Positions 5,241 through 19,068 of a stretch of DNA of 64,000 bases are shown piece after piece (position 1 is the first letter of the stretch; each line of letters opens with the position of its first letter). This DNA comes from Neelides folsomi (taxonomy: Eukaryota; Arthropoda; Collembola; Neelipleona; Neelidae). A program made the translations under genes and the position numbers. The notes under the pieces are model-generated. The model was not told where the DNA came from, ran no database searches, and saw nothing but the letters and a program-made list of their open reading frames with translations. The DNA lies in the NCBI GenBank assembly GCA_034687125.1, contig JAQGBZ010000060.1, positions 176,687-240,686 on the forward strand, given 5' to 3'.

Positions 5241-6621
5241 AACTTCACGATTTTAAAAATATTGCCAACATGATGACTCGCCATAATTTCATCCTATTCA
5301 GATATTTTTATCATGTATGATTGTAATATGAGTTAAGATTAAAATATCAAAAATGTAGTATGATTAGACCGCTGAGGCAGAAAAGTGTTAAATATTAAAC
5401 AAGTAATAATAATTTGATTCAATTATTTTAATAACTTCTTACTACATTTAACACTTTTTTTCATTCTTTCTTTTTATCTAAATGATGATTTTACAATTCA
5501 TGGAAGCGCTGGATTAACAATCTCTATATAAATTTGTTAACAATGAACGGACTGATTCAGTATAGTTTTATAAATACTTATTGCTACTGATCATCCAAAT
5601 GTGATTTTTAGGAATTCGACTACAATTATTGTCTTTTTAACTGAACTCGAGGCACAATGTTTAACCATATTAATCTATTACTACACTCTATACAAATTGA
5701 ATCGTGATGTTAATTGTATTTAACTAGCTGTAAGATTAACTTATTAAAATTAAATAATTTTACCTTAAATAACTTTTACCAATGGAAATATTTGTGGAAT
5801 GTCTAGAATTTGTAAAACTGATTTTATCACCATTATATTCCTATCTAAATGTATATTTTACAACTTGTCAAAAAACTAGTTTTATAAATTATTCGATAAT
5901 ATTTTACTATATATTCTTAATTAAATACTTCGCTTATTTTTCTATTACTCAAAGGCCAACTGGAAATTAGGCACATTAAAGGATTTATCTAATTAATATA
6001 TAATTTGTAGGTTTTTAGGATTGTACGCTGATATGATAAAAATTGGATTGTAATAATTTTTAAAACTGAAATAATATTGCTTCGTTGATAATACTTAAAA
6101 AACGTACAAAGAAAATTGAATAAATAAAAAAAAACCTGCTACATAAAACTGCTATTTTAATACTCCAAGACCATTTATTTATTTGTGGAGCGTGTGACTC
6201 GTTAAGTAGAGATACCTTTCATAATTACAGTAACTAAAATGTTTTAAAATAATATCAATTAATGATTTGGAACAATTAAATTGCATTCAAGACAAGTTTA
6301 CAAAGCTCACTCTGTCTCTTAAAAGTCGCTTGAAATGAATAAACTACAACAAAAAGTAACATAGAAAGAAATTTATAGTGATACAATTTTACATTTAACA
6401 AATACTTGAGAGAAAGAAGGATTTTGAATTTTAGATTTAGAAAAAGGAAATTAATTTACAATTTATTAATTAGGAAAAATGTACAAATCAAATGGGAAAA
6501 AAATTGGTGAGAGAAGTCGAAGATTTGAAGTAAATGAAAGTTGCCGGAAGTTGATGTTTTTGTGCCGAGAAGCAGATTGATTTTTTTTATAAATTTCTTC
6601 TCTACTTTTCGTTTCTTGTTT
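5241..6621. other. Tail-to-tail intergenic region (3' UTRs)
   Basis: This separates the stop of the SLC37 gene (plus) from the distal last exon of AP-1 sigma (minus). It is AT-rich with no believable coding frame; the longest open frame (5782-5970) is low-complexity. An AATAAA motif on the plus strand near 6118-6125, followed by an A-run, is a candidate polyadenylation signal for one reading, but nearer weak variants may be used instead. Confidence 0.5.
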
Positions 6622-6666
6622 TTATCCTAAACTGTGATCCTCAAAAAAACTCTGCGGCGTCTCTTC
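6622..6666 (-). CDS. AP1S: AP-1 sigma distal alternative last exon (FFEDH-type tail)
   Basis: A strong acceptor (CCTTCTTTGTAG) precedes a 45-nt frame encoding [14 protein letters not shown] and a stop. This is the tail typical of invertebrate AP-1 sigma, ending in a leucine-glycine. It joins the GAG at 9326 in phase 0. Use of this exon requires a 2.66-kb intron that skips the proximal alternative at 7208-7252. Confidence 0.88.
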   Translation of the reverse strand, partial: EETPQSFFEDHSLG

Positions 6667-9600
6667 CTACAAAGAAGGAAAAAACGGAATTTTAAAATTT
6701 ACTCTCCAACCTAATTAACTTAAAATTTATATTTAAAAAAAAATTTAACGAAAAATACTTAATACTTTTTAAGTTCAATTAAGAAAATATTGATTAGATG
6801 AATCCTAACCATTAAACATTATAATTTATAATAAATATAATTTTAATTAGCAAAGAGCAATTATAATTATTTTATATGCGGCAGATACACATCTTATACC
6901 CTGATTAAATCTAGGTAATCATTATCTTAATATTATTAATATTTTAAATCCAAATAAATATGTTGATTGGAATTTTGTAAGTGAAAGAGTTTTATTCAAT
7001 AAATTGTGATGTGAGGAATTACAGTTATTATTTAGTCAATAATTAAAATAATTCACTTCCACATTCCTCAATTGTTTGGCATGTGATTTGGCAAATTGGA
7101 AAGTGGTGGTTTGATCAGGAAGAGAATTGAAGTAAGGAATTGGGAAGTTCATATTTGATAATTAATGGAATGGTCGAAGTGAGTAAAATTGGTCCGTCAT
7201 ATTTTATTTAGATAAGCCCATGCTCACGCAGGATTGAGTCCATCATTTCATCCTGTATAATAATAATAAGGCCGAATATTTGAATTTAATTTAATTAAAT
7301 AAATTAAAAATTCAAATTAACTTAAACAGATTCTTTGAGTATCTTTATATTTAAAAATTTAAAACAAGTAGAAAGATACTTTTTCACAGGCAACATTAAT
7401 ACGATTCATTTCAACATGCCTTATAAGAAAAAGTTTAAAAAAATTTAAACTCCATTTCGTTGATCAAAATGAAAAAACCCAATTCCAAACTCGTTAAAAA
7501 ATCACCCCTTTTGCCATTCAAGGTTAGGAAAAATCACGAGAAATTAATGGTGTTAAATTATCAAACTAGATAAAACTACAATTTAAGTTTTCGTGAAAAA
7601 TATCATGCTACCATTTCATATCAAAACTAAATAGGATGAACATAATGTAATGATATATAATTATAATTAAATGTTATTTTTTCAAAATTGAACATGCAAA
7701 AATATTTAGGTAATGAACTTATAGAGGAATATTTAAATTAATTGACAATTATCTTTACATGCCACAACTTAATAAATAGGATAAATGAACCAATTCTTGC
7801 TACAATAGTAAAAGCGACTTAACCTCAAATAAATCAAATGACAAAATGAAGAAATATTTGAGATTTTTCTTAATGAACCAAAAGTATTTAAAAACATAAA
7901 TTACTTATCAGACCTTTAAATACCAACTTACAAATTTGATTTATAACCGAATTGGTAATTAACTACAATTATATAATATTATATTCCAATAAAGTATATC
8001 CTAAACATTATATCTTAAAATCATATCCTAGTGCGAAAATAAAATATATAAAATCTTTGTCTACTCGTGCGATCTTTGCGTATATCAATTACCAAACAAA
8101 CTCTTTTTTCGTACCTTTTGCACCATTAAATAATAAAAATCCTCGTATGGAAACCCCTTTCCTACAACTGACTAAATATTTGTTAAATTATGTGAAAAAA
8201 GCTTTAAATCTTAGAATATAAAATTGTAAAGCTTTGAGCTGAGATTTCGAGTCGTTTTTTCACATTATTTCTGAGCCATATCTATTTACCACTCACCATT
8301 TTTGGAAAACACTAGAATGAATTAAAAATTTCTAAAACGTGACTAAAAATGAGAAGAATCTAAAAGATTCATAAAGTGCCTAAATTTTACTTTTTATATC
8401 CAAACTTTCCCATTTAAAACATTACAACTGTATAATTTGTATACAAGCGTTTACAACATCTAATATAAAATTAGATTGATATTTTAATATTTTTTCTATT
8501 ATTTATAATGAAATAGATTCTTTTATCTATTTGTAAATAGGGATCAAAATATAATTCCATTTCTAAAATATGTTTTCTTTTAACTTTAAAATGCATTTCT
8601 ATTAAAATTCTTTGTAGAATGTGAAAGATTAATGTTTTATGAGATTCTTAATTATGTTCAATCATATCACCTCCCAATTCAACACTCACGTATACACGCC
8701 AAGTATACTGTATAATAAATGCGCGAATCCTGCGAACCTTTATAACCATTTCTTAATTGTTATTGTCTAATATTAGTAATTGTTAAATTAAATAACGCCA
8801 TTTGGTGAGATCTTAACCATTGGCTTAAGTAAAGCTGATGGTTTAACATGTAAAGTTAGTTCAAAAATTATTGTTATTGTGAGATAGCCTTGATTAGATT
8901 TCATTTTGCTAATACTTATTTATTAAATACTGCAAACTACGCTTTATATTCCTATCAAGGAGCGCTTAAATAATTAAAAGTTGACCAATTTATTCAATCC
9001 CTAATGAAAAATGTAGGAATACCAATCTCTAATCCAATCCTCTATATAAATAAATCTGACTTGAAAAACCTCGCCGAACTTGTCCGATTTAACTAATTTA
9101 GAAATTATAAATTAATGTTAGAGACCAATTGATTTGGGCAAGCAAGAACCAGCAGCCAAATTAACTTAAAATCACAATGTTAGTTAATTAAATAAAGATA
9201 AAATTTGGTATGATCGTGACTTCAAAATAGTCGAAGAAAAACATTTCTCAAAACAAACAAAATCCTTGGATGGAAATATTGACGAAAATATTTTAAAGTT
9301 CCACTGTGTTCGGCCCGTCGCTTACCTCTTGCAAAAGATCTTGAGCAGCGATCGCTTTCAACACATTCTTCTTCGATGTTTCTTGCACTTCCCCTCCAAT
9401 CAGGAGTTCGTCCAAGATGAAATACGCTTTCTCGAAATTGAAAATGATGTCAAGTTCGCAAACCTAAATGATTAAATACCAAATATATAAACAATAATTC
9501 TAAGGATCAATAAATGAATAAATTTTAAAGTTACAATAATAATTGAAATCATACACTGCCAAAGTACTTGTCCAAAAGCTCGACATAACGATGGATGATT

Positions 9601-10057
9601 TCCAAAGTCAAGAGCTCATTATCCGGTTGTTCGATAGCACAACAGAAGTAGAGACTCGCGTAACTATTAATCAAAAAATTTCATTATTGCCAAACTCAAA
9701 TACAGATTGAAATGCAATTTCAATTTTTTAGATAAACTCGATTATATTAACTTACCGCTTATAAACAATCTTTAAATCTCTCCATTCAAGGAAAGAGCAC
9801 ATTTTGGGTTTTCTTGACAGGATGGTTGTGACAAGTTCTCTGGTAATTTTTTTGCGGGTTTTGTCGGGTTGTGCAACGTACCATTTCTGCAGCCTCAACT
9901 TTCCTTGACGGCTAAACAACAGCATGAAGTGCATCTGCAAAATAGAACATTAAAATCAGTTAAAGTCCATTACATTCAATAACACTGCTAAATAAACAGG
10001 CTTAAAGTTAATTACTTTATAGTTAATATTTGAATGTTAAAGTTAAATATCTACCAT
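6622..10057 (-). CDS. AP1S: AP-1 clathrin adaptor complex sigma subunit, with two alternative last exons
   Basis: The small subunit of the heterotetrameric AP-1 adaptor, which sorts cargo between the trans-Golgi network and endosomes. Shared exons on the minus strand are 10057-10055 (the start Met alone, then a GTAGAT donor), 9934-9756, 9663-9555 and 9463-9326. The message then ends with either 7252-7208 or 6666-6622, both in phase 0 and both 45 nt, so each isoform is 157 aa (family usual 154-160). Landmarks: [20 protein letters not shown] at the N-terminus, [59 protein letters not shown] and [20 protein letters not shown]. The one-codon first exon is chosen because the family starts with two methionines before the HFMLLF-type strand; initiation inside exon 2 would lose only one residue. 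The gene is divergent from the orphan gene at 11324. Confidence 0.93.
7208..7252 (-). CDS. AP1S: AP-1 sigma proximal alternative last exon (ILREHGLI tail)
   Basis: An ATTATACAG acceptor precedes a 45-nt frame encoding [14 protein letters not shown] and a stop. It aligns position by position with the distal tail (acidic pair, Ser, two hydrophobics, acidic-His, Leu), the pattern expected of a duplicated exon, and its S-I-L-x-E spacing resembles the SVLEE tail of vertebrate AP-1 sigma. It joins the exon ending at 9326 in phase 0 over a 2.07-kb intron. Confidence 0.82.
   Translation of the reverse strand, partial: DEMMDSILREHGLI
7253..9325 (-). other. Long AP-1 sigma intron before the proximal last exon
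   Basis: A 2.07-kb AT-rich intron starting with a GTAAGC donor at 9325. I found no third copy of the 45-nt tail exon in it by eye. The open frame at 7952-8221 is lysine, tyrosine and isoleucine rich, as expected of random AT-rich sequence. Confidence 0.6.
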
Positions 10058-11323: not shown

Positions 11324-14300
11324 ATGCCTGGAAAATTTCTTGAATACATAAAGGTGAGTTATAGAATTGAAAACATTACAATTTTTCGATTTAAATATAT
11401 TGGGAATTATTTATTTATTTGTAATTTTTAAATAAGCCATATTGGACTGAATTAAATGAATGTGAATTGAAGGTGGGGAGTCTTGCTGTACCTGTCGAGA
11501 TCACTCTCATGAAATCCTCCTTCTATGACGATGACCCGGGGACTTTTGTCACAACTTCCAAATGGTCTCAACCCTGCCATTGGAGAGTAAGCTTAATTTA
11601 AATTATACAGTTAATGTAATTAATTTAAATGTCCGTATGGTTTGGAGTAATAAGAAATTTTTAATTTTAAGGAAATCAAGATCATGCTGAAGCCGGCAGT
11701 TGAACTTGTATTGGACCACAATGATTCTGTGTCTGATACAATTTCCAAAACTAACAATGTTTCTGTTGGGCAAGATATCTCTTTTGGGTAATTAAATCAT
11801 TTTTTCTATACACATGATACTTTTAAAATGGATTATACTTAACTGATAATTGGGTTAATTTTTAAATTTAAGCTACGTGATCGCATTAAATAATCACAAA
11901 TCGGCTTTTCTTTCTCTTCTCGATGTGAAGAAGAAACATTGGACAGACGATGAAGAAGACGAAATGGATCTTTTTGACAACATTCAAGATCTTGGTGAGA
12001 AATCGTTTATGATTTCAATATTTATCTTAGAAAATTCATTTTAAGTGTTTTGCAATATGAATTCATTCTTATGGATAGTAGGAATTGTAATATTTTATGC
12101 CAATTCGATGTTGTATGTATTTCAATTCATTCACAAGATTTATATAACACACCATACATAATAATATTAAGTTTTTATTAAATCTTTTTTCAAGTATTGC
12201 ATTACTAGAAAGTTTTTAATCGACATAATTCATCACTGTATCACAGCTTCCATTTCATCACAATAGCGAAAACCATTGTTAGTTTACACTGTTTACAGTA
12301 CAATGCAGATCCACAGTTGCCAGCCAGTTTAGCAATTACTTCCATAATTCACGGAATGCTTTTATAATGCTTTATTCAACTTTTTTAAGTAGTTTAATTA
12401 CTCTATAATTGAGGAATTAAATATTTATTTCGAGCTTTAAATATTTAACACTAACAATTTTGATAAAAATTGTTAAAGATTTATTTCTTAATACTTCATT
12501 TTGCTTCTTCTTTCATTTCAAAATGGCAATTTGTAAATTACTGATGAATTAATACAAGTATTTATTAATGCTCCGATCGGAAGGTGGGGGGTGGAAAAGA
12601 GGCAAGTTACTTGACCTGTTCACTAATATTAACATTACTGACTATGTAGTGCATTACAAAACTGCATTAGAATAAATAAATTGCAAATTAGTTACAATTT
12701 ATTAATCAACTATATACCAAGATTGTAGATAGAATGACTTCATATTTCGTCATAAATATAATATGTTATTTTACCTACATAAATAAGCGTATGATATAAC
12801 TTATAAAAATATAAATAATCCATAATTTTCTCTTTAGAATATAAACTTATATTCTAAAGTAAGTACATTGTATGTTCTTTAGAATCTATCTTATGTTATC
12901 TTTACCTATACTTAAATTATCTTTATTTTAAATATAAAGATAAATTAGTGTTACGTGGTTAAACTTTAATTATTTAATACTAGTTGTGAATGCTTAATTA
13001 ACTAACGTTTGTTTAGGTGGGCGCTACAAGAATCTGAGCACGACGAAGTATATGATTAAAGCCTGCGCCGTCCTCAAATCAAAGTCAAAAGCAGAAGACG
13101 AGAAAAAGATTCGGACCGAACTTGGAATTAAAGCCGACGATCTCGCTGCTTATCTCGGCTTATCTTCTTCTTCTTCAAAATGTTCTTCAGCCAAAAAGTG
13201 ATTCATATAAATTTTAAGTTTTTCAATTTCACTATTTAATTAATTATCATTGAGTTCCTTCAAAATCACTTTTTTGTATTATGTATAAATTGGATCAAAC
13301 TTATAGTATTTTTTCATAATATCAACTTTTGTTTTTCTCCAACTATTAACATTCCATTTTAAATAAAATATCCATTTTTGATAATAATTAATAAATGATA
13401 AATTGAGCTTCATAAAGATAATTTTTTGTTATTTTCACGAGCATTATTTTTAATTATAAATACCAAATTCATCCATTTAATCATTTTCATTTATGGTGTA
13501 GGAGGAAACGAGCTCCTCGACCGCCTCGAAAGCAGTCAACACCTCTGAAGGAATCGCCATCAATTCCAATCGTTCCAAGAGCCGAAGTCCCCAAAAGCTT
13601 CGACTTCTCTTTCACTTCCCGCACCGACTCAAGAACAGAAAACTTTCAAGCTCTTCTCAAACGTGTTTCTTCCTCTCCGACCAAAGAACTCTCCGCCTTT
13701 GCCAAAAAACCTACCGTAGAGGAGTCAGACGGATGGAACGATTGTGAAATTAACGGAAGCTATTATGAGGAACGGGACGACCAAGTGATTGCCGGAGTTT
13801 ATTGTGGGAATGTCGATGACGACGACGATGGTTCAGTCATCAGCTGGGAACTCCCTGACATTGACAACGATCTTGACAAAACTCCTTATTTCGAATCCAT
13901 TCCCGATTATCTCATCAACATTAACACACTCCGTCGCGGTCCAGGGTCAACTTCCTCTTCTGAAATCTCTCTAATTGACAAGCCAAAACGAAAAAAGAAG
14001 GAAAAACCGAAAGTTGTCAATAAACCCACAGAGAGCGAATCTGAACTTCATGCCATTTACGGGAAAGCGACTCCTTTGGCTCATCTTGGTGATTTGATTG
14101 GATCTCCCACAGCTTCTCCTACAACAACAATTCACTCCATTTCCACAATCAACGTCCAGAGTTTGGCCTTAGCACAAAATCAAAATCGAGTCGAAGCGGA
14201 TAAAATCGTTAATTATTTTGCATCAATTGAGAAAGCGGCCGAAGAGAATCAAACTAATTTAGCTACTGTGATCCGAGTTCCTGCTCCTGCACCAACTCCG

Positions 14301-17300
14301 CCTAATGTTCCCCCAACGAATGAATTCGATGAGCAGTTGCGACTCGAACGCCTTCGGAAAAAAGATATGGAATCGAAAAAAGCTAAGGAAAAGTCACAAG
14401 AGCAAGATAAAGGCCGACTCGAAGGGGAAAATTTAAGAGAAATTGAATTAGAAATGGCCAGATTGGCTGCTTTAGGACGACAAAAGAAGCCAAGACGGAT
14501 TGGACAAGACAGCTGTAATGAACAGTCAGTTGGAGCTTTGAGCACGGCAACTCTTAGTGAGATATTCAGAGCGAGCGAAAGCGAAGGTGAACGAAGGAGC
14601 GATAAGCAAAGGAGTCCTTTTAAAAAGTCTGACATTGTCATTCAGAAATGGGTCAATGATTCTTCTAGCAATGAGAACGAGGCAGCTGGGTTGGCGAAGA
14701 ATAGACGTGATACGGGAGAATGTAATAAGAAGGATGGAACTGGAAGGGTCTCTCCGATAGTCTCAACTGACCCAACTGGAGGTCAAGCACAAGTAGAAAA
14801 GTCAGTCAGGAAAGGGAAGGAAAATAGTCAAGCAAAAGGGCCAAGTCAAAGTAAAACATCACAAGCTAACAAAGCACCTGAAGTCCAAGCCAATTTAAAT
14901 AAAAAACAAACTGCTCCGGTTTCACCTGTTAAAATTACCAAAACAAACGTCCAGAGTCTTCAGAGACCAAATACACAAAGTCAATCGCAAAAAGAAGCTC
15001 CGGTTTTAAAGACAAAAGACAAAGAAATTGGAATTTTGAAAAAAGCACCATTGGTTCGTTCCCATACTGAGCCAATTATAAGAAGTCCTTTAGTGACCAA
15101 AGCCAGCCGAAAGGAAATTTTGCAAGAAAAATCTTCAGAAAATGTGAAATCTGTGGAATTTACCCGAAGGCAAACTCGGAGTAGAAGCAGCGAAGCTCCT
15201 AAAACAAAGTCATTGGAACAAAGAGGGAATGAAAAAAGGACCAAAAGTGTTGAACGTCTCCGGCATCGAAAAACTGGTGATATTGAAAGTGATCCAGAAA
15301 TGCCAATTCTGATGCAAATTCGTCCCTTGGAACAAGTTGATGTTTTATTTAGACGTGAAAGTCATGAACTTCCAATTCTAACTCCAATGAGCTCACCAAA
15401 AGTCTTAAGTACTTCCCAACCAAATCTTTCTCATCCTGTTTTAGTTGAAAAAAGAAATATCATCACGAATCAAAATTCCAAAACCCGAAATGAGTACAAA
15501 GAAAATCAACCAAGAAAATCTCTTCGTTTGGAACCCAAAGAAATACGAACAATTGGGAAGAAAATGTATTCTGCACCTTCACCTTCCAAAATTCATCCGA
15601 GATCTGAAAATCAAACTTTACTGAAATCTGCAACCAAATCTTCTCCGATTCATTCGATCTTAAAATCTCACGATTCGACAAAAACGATCATTTTAAATAG
15701 AAAAGAGGACCGAAATAAAAAATTACCAAAACATGCTGAAAATCCAATTGAAAAATCTCCTACAGCTTCAGCCCAAACGCTTGAATCGACCAATAAATAT
15801 TCAAAGAAGGTTGAATTGTTAAAACGGAAAGAAGTTGAGAAAAAAGATTCAAAACCTCCAAAAAGAAATTCGACAAGGAATAAAAACATGGAACAGGAAA
15901 AAGTACAAAAAATTGGCAGAAAACCATTTGGAACTGAAAATAATTCAAAAAGTCCTGTTATGATGAAAAGAACTGAAAATGTCCATCGTCGTTCGAATGA
16001 ATCTCCCGTTATTGACAAAGCCGCAAACCAGCTGAGCAAAACATTTGAGAATCTCTTCAAGAAGGAAATGAAGAACCGTGAAAAGATTAAGGAAGCAAAG
16101 CAAAAGACAAAGGTTAAATTGAATCTTGAAAACATTCGGAATGTCGTGGTGCAAATGATCAATCAAAAAGTCAAATTAATGAACGAATCTTCAACTGATT
16201 TGAATGACTCTTTGCTTTTGAACAGATCAAATTTAAGATCTTCACTTGGAAAGGAAAAGGAAAAAGAGAAAAACGTAGAAAAGACAATTCAAGAAAAACC
16301 AATTTCTGAAATCCGTCCCAAACCATCAGCTGAAAAACAAGTAAATGAAAAATTGGTAAATAAGGAAAAAACTACAAGTATAACAGCAGTGGAAAAACAC
16401 ACAAGCTCTGAGAAATCAAATGTAGAAAATATTCCAAAAACACGAAAATCAATGGCAGCTGAAAAAATGACCAATCCAGAAAAAAGAGTCCAAAAAGCGT
16501 TTTTCCCCGAACCAACTGATAAACCAAAAGTTATTGAAAAATCTCCAGCTGTTGAAAAATCAAATAAAAGAATTCCACAAAGGAAAACATTAGTAGTGGT
16601 CAAAGTTCCACCACCCAAAATGAAACCTGGGAAGAAAATCCAAAAGGCTATTTCAAAGGTCAAGAGGGAACTGAGGTCACAATTTGTTTCTCCTATCAAA
16701 AACTTACCAGAATCATCATCTCGTTCACATTTGGGACACATAAAGGAAAAGGAAAAACCACGAGAGAAAATAATTAACAAATCGTTGAAATCGAAGCGAA
16801 CTCGAACTTCTTGTGAAGCTTCAGTTCAAACCGAGCCAGAAACTGATTCACAAGTTTCTCAATTATCACAAGTGTGCCAAGCTTCTCAAGTTTCATCACA
16901 TGCGACAATTATCGAAGAGGATTTGAAGAGCCGACATCATGAATCGAGCCAAAGGTCAAGTCATGATGAAGAAAATGGGGAAATTGCTCTTAGATATGGA
17001 AAAGTTTATGAAGATGATTTCGATGTGAATGAATTTTCCAAAATGAAAGAACCGGTCCCAATGACGCCAGAAACAGTTTTCGGAAAACGTAAACAAAGCA
17101 TTAAAACCTCACCGATTGATTTCCCATCGTCGCGAGAATCGAGAAGCCCACCAAGGTCCAGTTTCAACAAATCTCCATTAACAATCGACATCGACTTTGA
17201 AGACGATGACGAGGAAAATACTGAACAAGAAAAGGATTTATTTTCTTTTGAAGGGATCGAGTCCCCGCCAAGGGCCATTGAATATGAACACGAACAGGAA

Positions 17301-19068
17301 ATGTCTTCACCTGATAAATATTCAGAAAAATATTCAGTTTCTGAAGTAAATCATGATGAATATCAATCAGTACATTCAGAGTCGGAGGATGAACCACGAC
17401 CTTCGACCTCAAAAGCTTCATCAACTTTGGCAATTATGCCACCGCCATTTAAACGTCCCCCAACGAGGAATTCCAATAGTGGAACAAATGACAGCGAATT
17501 GGGGGAAAATCAAAGAGCTTTGGAAGCCATTGGAATCACTGAAAATCCATCACAAATGCCGGCAATTTCGCTATTGACCAATCAATATGTTTTGCCTTAT
17601 ATTTTCGATTGTGTGAATCGGTTGAACAAAAAAGAAATTTCTTCATTGGAGATGGGACGGAAATTGGGATATAATTTGATGCCGCCACCAGCGAATCCGA
17701 AAAGGGGAAGGCCGTCGAGTCCGGACATGGTCGCCCAATCTTCCAAGATTGTAAAGAAAATGCGGAAGGAGGAAAAAGAAAAGGAAATGGCTTGGAGTTT
17801 GTCTAAAAGGACAAAGGGAGCTACAGCTGAAGATGACACAAGGGCGAGATTGCTCAAAGCCCCATATGTGGAAGAAGGATGTGGAATCATGTTTAAAGAA
17901 ATTGTTAAAAGATATTCTTCAAAAGCTGATGCTCCAATGAGAGGTAAAATCAATTTTTTGGCAAAATCAACATTATATGATACATATTTGCTTTTTTGTC
18001 CTTTTAATTTACAATTAAAGTTTCATTAATTTAAAGTTAATTAAAAAAATTATGACTTTTAATGAATTTGTATTTGTTTTAGGAAATACGTCTGGGGAAG
18101 AAGATTTACATCAAATGTCACAAGGGTCCATTGCCTGCATTCCATTTGTTCAAAGATATCCGCAAAAGAGTTCAATTTATAAAGACCATTTAAAGTAAAT
18201 ATTTATTAATTAAATGACCAATTTCTAAAATTATTTACCAAATCAAACTTACTTATTTTTACTTTGAATTTTTAATAGGCCTGTTATTATTTTTTTTAAA
18301 TTGGAAATTAGAAGATTATATGATTGTTATTTACAGGAAAATCCAAGAACTTGACGTTTGGGACGCGTTGGAAATTTTTCAAGAGATCAAGGATGAAATC
18401 ATTGGTATCTTTGAAGAAAAGATCCCAAGTTTGCGTCATAACGTAAGAGCTCTTTAATTACAATTTCCTAATGCTAATGGGATTTTTTAAAAGTTTAAAT
18501 TAATATAAGAATTTGAATTAAATTAAAATTAGATTTTACTTTATATCTGTTAATTGTGAATATTTTTTGTAGCTTTTCCTCATGGGACGAGAGAAGCTGA
18601 GAGAGCTGAAGAGTCGTAAAGTGACTTTTCCATTTGGGAACGACGTATCTTTTCGTGTCATTGACCTTTTGTATGCATTGCTAATTCCTCATCCAGAGGA
18701 TCGTTGCAAGGTAATTTAATTAAACTCTCTCATATTATAACATTATTTACATTATATTATAGATTAGTATACATTATATACATTTAATTTAATTCTGGGA
18801 TCTGACTTATTTTCTAATTGTAAAGAAAATATTTTTAAATATTTATTTTTAATCGAATGACTTTTTTCTATTGCAGTGGGCTTTGTATATTGACACAGTG
18901 ATGATGCCAGAAGCTCTGATCAGAATTTACGCCAAAGTGAATAATATCGATTACAAATTGGCAGAGAACGAAATGAGACATGGGCCGTGCTACGATGATG
19001 ATGACGATGACCACGTAGCCATTTCTAATTTACCTTCAACTTCTCTATCTCTTATGACTCCAGATTGA
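11324..19068 (+). CDS. Large unassigned protein, 1850 aa, charged and largely disordered
   Basis: I do not recognise this gene. Coding exons are 11324-11353, 11473-11586, 11672-11787, 11873-11994, 13017-13197, 13502-17943, 18083-18194, 18337-18442, 18573-18710 and 18877-19068; all phases close. Residues 1-187 look folded: alternating hydrophobic strands (GSLAVPVEITL, REIKIMLKPAVELVLD, GYVIALNNHKSAFLSLL), then an acidic patch and a lysine-rich helix. Residues about 188-1600, nearly all in one 4.4-kb exon, are Lys/Glu/Ser/Pro-rich low complexity with many basic clusters of nuclear-localisation type (KPKRKKKEKPK), acidic runs (DDDDDG) and repeated xEKxxxEK words. From about 1600 to 1830 the sequence again looks folded and helical (KEIVKRYS, VWDALEIFQEIKDEIIGIFE, WALYIDTVMMPEALIRIYAK), then ends with an acidic run and serine tail. 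A nuclear scaffold or chromatin role is a guess from composition only. Three exons use AAG acceptors; the 30-nt first exon and the weak acceptor at 11472 are the least certain joins. Confidence 0.85.
11995..13016 (+). other. 1.0-kb intron of the orphan gene
   Basis: AT-rich intron with a GTGAGA donor and GTTTAG acceptor. It contains a perfect hairpin at 12832-12859 and no coding frame that would fit the phase-1 join. A further partial copy of one hairpin arm (CTTTAGAATC) lies about 17 bases downstream. Confidence 0.6.
12832..12859. repeat. Perfect 13-bp inverted repeat with a 2-base loop
   Basis: The arms CTTTAGAATATAA and TTATATTCTAAAG are exact reverse complements separated by AC. It lies inside an intron. 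It could be the centre of a decayed palindromic or foldback element; I saw no flanking duplication or terminal repeat to prove that. Confidence 0.7.

Follow-up and report, generated by a model that had tools for sequence, protein, structure and literature searches.

Can a single AP-1 sigma gene of an arthropod supply two sigma subunits that differ only in their C-terminal tails? The question is raised by a locus of the collembolan Neelides folsomi, at which the original prediction placed two last exons of equal length behind one shared donor and described them as a mutually exclusive, tandemly duplicated pair, doing by splicing what vertebrates do with gene duplicates. Here, the locus was evaluated within the window (the whole stretch of 64,000 nucleotides of contig JAQGBZ010000060.1 that was analyzed, in whose coordinates all positions are given) and across the genome assembly. 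Judged from the DNA and its translations, the gene very probably offers two real, usable tails, a conclusion with which the rival readings of mechanism and origin weighed below are compatible.

RESULTS

Layout of the AP-1 sigma gene.

The AP-1 sigma gene (AP1S), read directly and spliced by script, is intact on the minus strand from position 10057 to position 6622. Its ATG start codon (10055..10057, minus strand, as for every exon and intron of the gene given below) stands at the end of exon 1, is followed by a donor gt, and opens a translation that starts like the solved sigma-1A chain. Exon 2 (9756..9934), exon 3 (9555..9663), and exon 4 (9326..9463), each of which matched the small-chain domain family PF01217 in the genome search, are separated by introns of 92 and 91 nt, and exon 4 ends in ...DLLQE, at residue 143, on a phase-0 donor, GAG/gtaagc (in full, TTGCAAGAG/gtaagc; the slash marks the splice site), that is common to both tails. 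The proximal alternative last exon lies at 7208..7252, beyond an intron of 2,073 nt (7253..9325, as calculated from the exon coordinates), and the distal one lies at 6622..6666; each is 45 nt long and encodes a 14-residue tail followed by a stop. Whether spliced to the proximal or to the distal end, the frame remains open over 474 nt and encodes 157 residues, the two isoforms being identical across 143 residues and their difference being confined to the 14-residue C-terminal tail. Direct reading and splicing therefore confirmed the predicted architecture of two 45-nt last exons with their own AG acceptors, both in phase 0 from one donor and both encoding 14 residues and a stop. The stretch 6600-7300 occurs at a single place in the genome, and the sequence of the distal tail exon has itself as its sole match in the window at up to three mismatches.

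Two further observations concern the shared donor. When it is left unspliced, the frame reads on through 9325-9293 of the minus strand, giving a possible third tail of 10 residues. In the solved AP1S3 chains, too, QE is followed by VS, the residues that would result from a read-through donor. Production of the AP1S3 QE-VS, or of a third tail in N. folsomi, by donor read-through is possible.

Identity and copy number.

The clathrin adaptor small-chain domain (PF01217, Clat_adaptor_s) matched residues 1-140 of both isoforms, with E values of 4.5e-60 and 4.6e-60. Among solved structures in the PDB, the best matches to the distal isoform were sigma-1A chains (1w63_Q; E 9e-81; residues 1-155); AP-1 sigma-3 matched at 9.8e-74, and the best AP-2, AP-4, and AP-3 matches stood at 1.5e-39, 1.1e-32, and 8e-28, respectively. 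By these matches of the distal isoform, the protein resembles sigma-1 more closely than it does sigma-2, -3, or -4. We take the solved sigma-1 chains among the matches to be of human and mouse origin. Sigma-1A shares its start with the collembolan protein, matches the distal form over nearly its full length, and carries the same kind of tail, the 158-residue chain having 15 residues after the junction versus 14 in each of the tails described here.

A PF01217 scan of the genome (75.1 Mb in 840 contigs) gave 12 matches at five places, with three matches each at AP1S, on C174, and on C58, two on C115, and a single weak one, below the cutoff, on C318. From translations judged by eye and by recall, we assume that C174 carries AP-2 sigma, C58 carries AP-3 sigma, and C115 carries coatomer zeta. 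A protein search of the genome with the distal isoform returned seven matches, at AP1S and on C174, C58, and C318. Neither search, both covering the whole genome, found a second AP1S gene or a retrocopy; the genome search works exon by exon and, for large families, gives minimum counts. AP1S is, by these searches, the sole AP-1 sigma gene found in the genome, and the notion that one of the tails comes from a second AP1S gene was rejected, there being no further AP1S-like match.

Both tail exons stand out from chance reading frames.

Every AG of the window, on either strand, that leads into a phase-0 frame running 12 to 30 residues to a stop was taken as a candidate tail (n = 1,829), and the candidates were scored by their similarity to 12 residues from the tail of the solved sigma-1A chain. 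The proximal and distal exons ranked first and second among the 1,829, with scores of 26 and 24, the third-ranked candidate reaching 17. The 3,525-nt region was also simulated 300 times under a first-order Markov model; the highest score obtained was 21, and no simulation (0/300) reached 24. The candidate ranking and the simulations together rule out that either tail exon is a chance reading frame. Against the sigma-1A tail, permutation gave p values of 0.00013 for the proximal and 0.00028 for the distal peptide, and the predicted gapless alignment of one tail with the other was borne out, with 4/14 identities and a BLOSUM62 sum of 18 (permutation p, 0.00067). The GC contents of the two exons, 0.444 and 0.422, compare with a mean of 0.250 in the flanking noncoding DNA, where 0.5% of 3,303 overlapping 45-nt windows reach 0.444.

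These figures bear on the reading that just one tail exon is in use, its counterpart being the remnant of a former last exon and still tail-like. By eye, the pyrimidine tract of the proximal acceptor (ttattattatacag) is weaker than that of the distal one (ttccttctttgtag), which favors such a reading; yet both frames are intact in acceptor, phase, length, and stop, both peptides are close to the sigma-1A tail, and an unused 45-nt exon would be expected to drift toward the 25% GC background. We regard the loss of one exon from use as quite unlikely, and retain the reading in which both tails are usable.

Splice sites and 3' ends.

The proximal acceptor reads ttattattatacag/GATGAAATG and the distal acceptor ttccttctttgtag/GAAGAGACG, so that two acceptors follow one donor in the same phase (0) and each exon carries its own stop, as in alternative last exons. 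The proximal exon ends in CTTATCTAA/ataaaat, with no donor GT at the stop. The 6667..7207 segment on the minus strand, which may be proximal 3' untranslated region (UTR), interexon intron, or both, is accompanied by AATAAA/ATTAAA hexamers starting at 7208, 6996, and 6847; the likely distal 3' UTR and the DNA beyond it (5800..6621, minus strand, with the far end set by hand) contain hexamers at 6467, 6183, 6179, and 6161. Such poly(A)-like hexamers occur at chance level in both places, with 3 observed versus 3.6 expected after the proximal exon (region 7211-6667) and 4 versus 4.7 after the distal exon (region 6625-5800). Since their frequency is that of chance, the hexamers were dropped as support for two 3' ends.

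The same count bears on whether the proximal exon might be an internal cassette that is spliced on to the distal exon, an arrangement that would yield the same two tails with regulation by exon skipping, possibly coupled to decay of the included form, instead of by 3'-end choice. Hexamers that do not exceed chance between the exons agree with a cassette, but the proximal stop is not accompanied by a donor GT, and any donor would have to sit further downstream; we hold this arrangement to be improbable. Two true last exons remain the preferred reading, and here the original description as mutually exclusive needs to be divided. It stands for the protein, since each last exon carries a stop and every protein can therefore have one tail only, but it does not extend to the mRNA, as the sequence leaves room for one mRNA that contains both exons.

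Origin of the exon pair.

The proposal of a tandem exon duplication was supported at the protein level, by the tail-to-tail p value of 0.00067, but not at the DNA level: the two exons are identical at 16/42 coding positions, with p values of 0.056 when bases and 0.080 when codons were shuffled. As this DNA identity is not significant, common descent of the exons is backed by the peptides only. A minimum of 8 residues has been used to recognize homologous exon swaps (text of PMC9741552, seen in part); the tails described here have 14 residues each, are similar to one another, and are both related to the sigma-1A tail. The exons could instead have arisen independently and converged on a tail of acidic, Ser, hydrophobic, and Leu positions. 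The modest DNA identity would suit such an origin, which nevertheless appears doubtful in view of the permutation values between the tails and between each of them and the sigma-1A tail. Pattern scans for relatives in collections of viral and prokaryotic contigs gave 3 and 16 matches, respectively, none of which was confirmed; given the makeup of these collections, that outcome has no bearing on conservation of the pair.

The tail as a separable unit of sigma subunits.

Since the small-chain domain match covers residues 1-140 in both isoforms, the tail swap starts just past the domain. The AP-2 sigma of N. folsomi (C174, L017) ends LNSLE-stop, one residue before the AP-1 tail junction by our own residue count, and solved AP-2 sigma chains have 141 to 142 residues. 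The AP-3 sigma gene (C58, L015) has a phase-0 intron of its own, ...LERQE/gtgaat, near the position of the AP-1 tail intron; by our count the two positions differ by two residues of length, an offset with which common descent of the AP-3 and AP-1 sigma introns is only suggested. Local alignments with two full-length AP1S3 chains stop 3 to 4 residues beyond the tail junction. The AP-2 stop, the AP-3 intron, and the ends of the AP1S3 alignments together indicate that the sigma tail behaves as a separable, modular unit.

Other features of the window and the assembly.

An Rfam scan of the window gave no match at the gathering threshold. On the plus strand, an open frame at 13785-18029 encodes 1,414 amino acids that by eye are charged and serine-rich; it has no Pfam match at E 0.01 and coincides with a bump in GC and AT skew at 14-18 kb. 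Elsewhere in the assembly, contig C742 (L019; 15,157 bases, of which 9,900 were read) is mitochondrial. Its tRNA genes run Ile, Gln, Met, Trp, Cys, Tyr, Leu, Lys, Asp, Gly, Ala, Arg, Ser, Glu, Phe, and tRNA-Leu(UUR) stands between cox1 and cox2; its protein genes were named by eye, tRNA-Asn was not called, and one tRNA is without assignment. We take the gene order of C742 to be the insect-crustacean arrangement, and its cox1 protein, judged by eye, resembles that of springtails.

DISCUSSION

Alternative last exons that exchange a C-terminal tail outside the conserved small-chain domain would be a credible and fairly ordinary form of splicing. The swapping of C termini by tandemly duplicated exons is a known class, represented by 77 of 236 human events and by 154 fly genes in the available part of PMC9741552, and it likewise exchanges homologous C-terminal regions. 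AP-1 sigma is not named in the main text of that paper as available ("AP1S," "AP-1," and "adaptor" occur 0 times each). The 348 Drosophila alternative-last-exon genes analyzed in PMC9470587 have the same architecture, with differing C termini and separate 3' UTRs, and the authors conclude, as far as the available text goes, that for many of them the exon is really decided by selection of a poly(A) site; AP-1 sigma is absent from its main text in the same form ("AP-1," 0; "sigma," 0). Nor is it mentioned in the available parts of PMC8055025, PMC4465641, and PMC8797185. AP1S genes are mentioned, and an alternative tail is not, in the accessible passages of PMC2585812 (12 of 35 places), PMC8806629 (12 of 24 places), PMC8355340, and PMC11996387 (a fly screen table). 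Among the matches listed, no paper dealt with alternative last exons of invertebrate AP-1 sigma, which is weak evidence, as the literature covered is mostly without subscription journals, and a tail peptide matched no paper in that literature.

Annotation may be ahead of the literature in this respect. Insect AP-1 sigma genes have several annotated isoforms, and the C termini of insect and nematode AP-1 sigma records presumably include close counterparts of both tails described here (of the types "DEAVEGTLRDIGLL" and "EETPQGFFEDHGLG"). Should this hold, public annotation would already contain the pair, even if it is not discussed, and its novelty would be lower. At present, on the evidence of its sequence, the pair is one more well-formed example of alternative last exons.

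In N. folsomi one AP-1 sigma gene was found, whereas vertebrates have three. We assume that the type AT in a tumor splicing list stands for alternate terminator. The three vertebrate genes are AP1S1, AP1S2, and AP1S3 (PMC8806629, in part), and human AP1S2 has two events of type AT, one of them exon 5.2, in the part of PMC9485890 that was available. From similarly partial texts, AP1S2 also contains an SRRM4-dependent 9-nt neural microexon, which is said to be important for contacts inside the AP-1 complex (PMC13387927); an Ap1s2 microexon is found in both linear and circular RNA (PMC8355340), and AP1S2 transcripts are listed as nonsense-mediated decay targets common to human, mouse, and rat (PMC10816255). 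With the AT events and the microexon, alternative splicing of AP-1 sigma is already known in vertebrates, a likeness to the collembolan gene that is drawn at the level of the gene. The idea that splicing in N. folsomi stands in place of the vertebrate gene duplicates (PMC9485890 and PMC13387927, as available, bear on it) was accordingly too sharp.

How might the two tails work? We infer splicing of both exons, the manner of choice between them, a helical tail, and a functional effect, and propose the following scheme: (i) exon 4 completes the small-chain domain, and its single donor would be joined to either the proximal or the distal last exon; (ii) the choice could be made through 3'-end selection or through choice of the acceptor; (iii) the tail is a part of sigma that is present in AP-1 and missing in AP-2; and (iv) the tail chosen may change the accessory or cargo partners met by the gamma/sigma half of AP-1, while the core assembled into the complex would stay untouched. 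In mammals, sigma-1A shares 87% identity with sigma-1B, and the two also differ outside the tail, Vps34 fragments bound neither sigma-1 in the authors' test, and partner choice is not mapped to the sigma tail, in the part of PMC4944158 available.

A more far-reaching view would join these elements: the pair of interchangeable tail exons, with its intron where the small-chain domain ends, would predate arthropod diversification; the vertebrate sigma-1A, -1B, and -1C tails would have started as splice variants and become fixed in separate gene copies afterwards; and the tails would recruit different regulators, switching AP-1 routes within one cell type. Taken as a whole, we consider this view a long shot.

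To conclude, should both tails be made, the two proteins, differing only there, would provide a clean test of the role of the sigma-1 tail, and the gene would offer a route to ask whether splice variants preceded gene copies in the sigma family.
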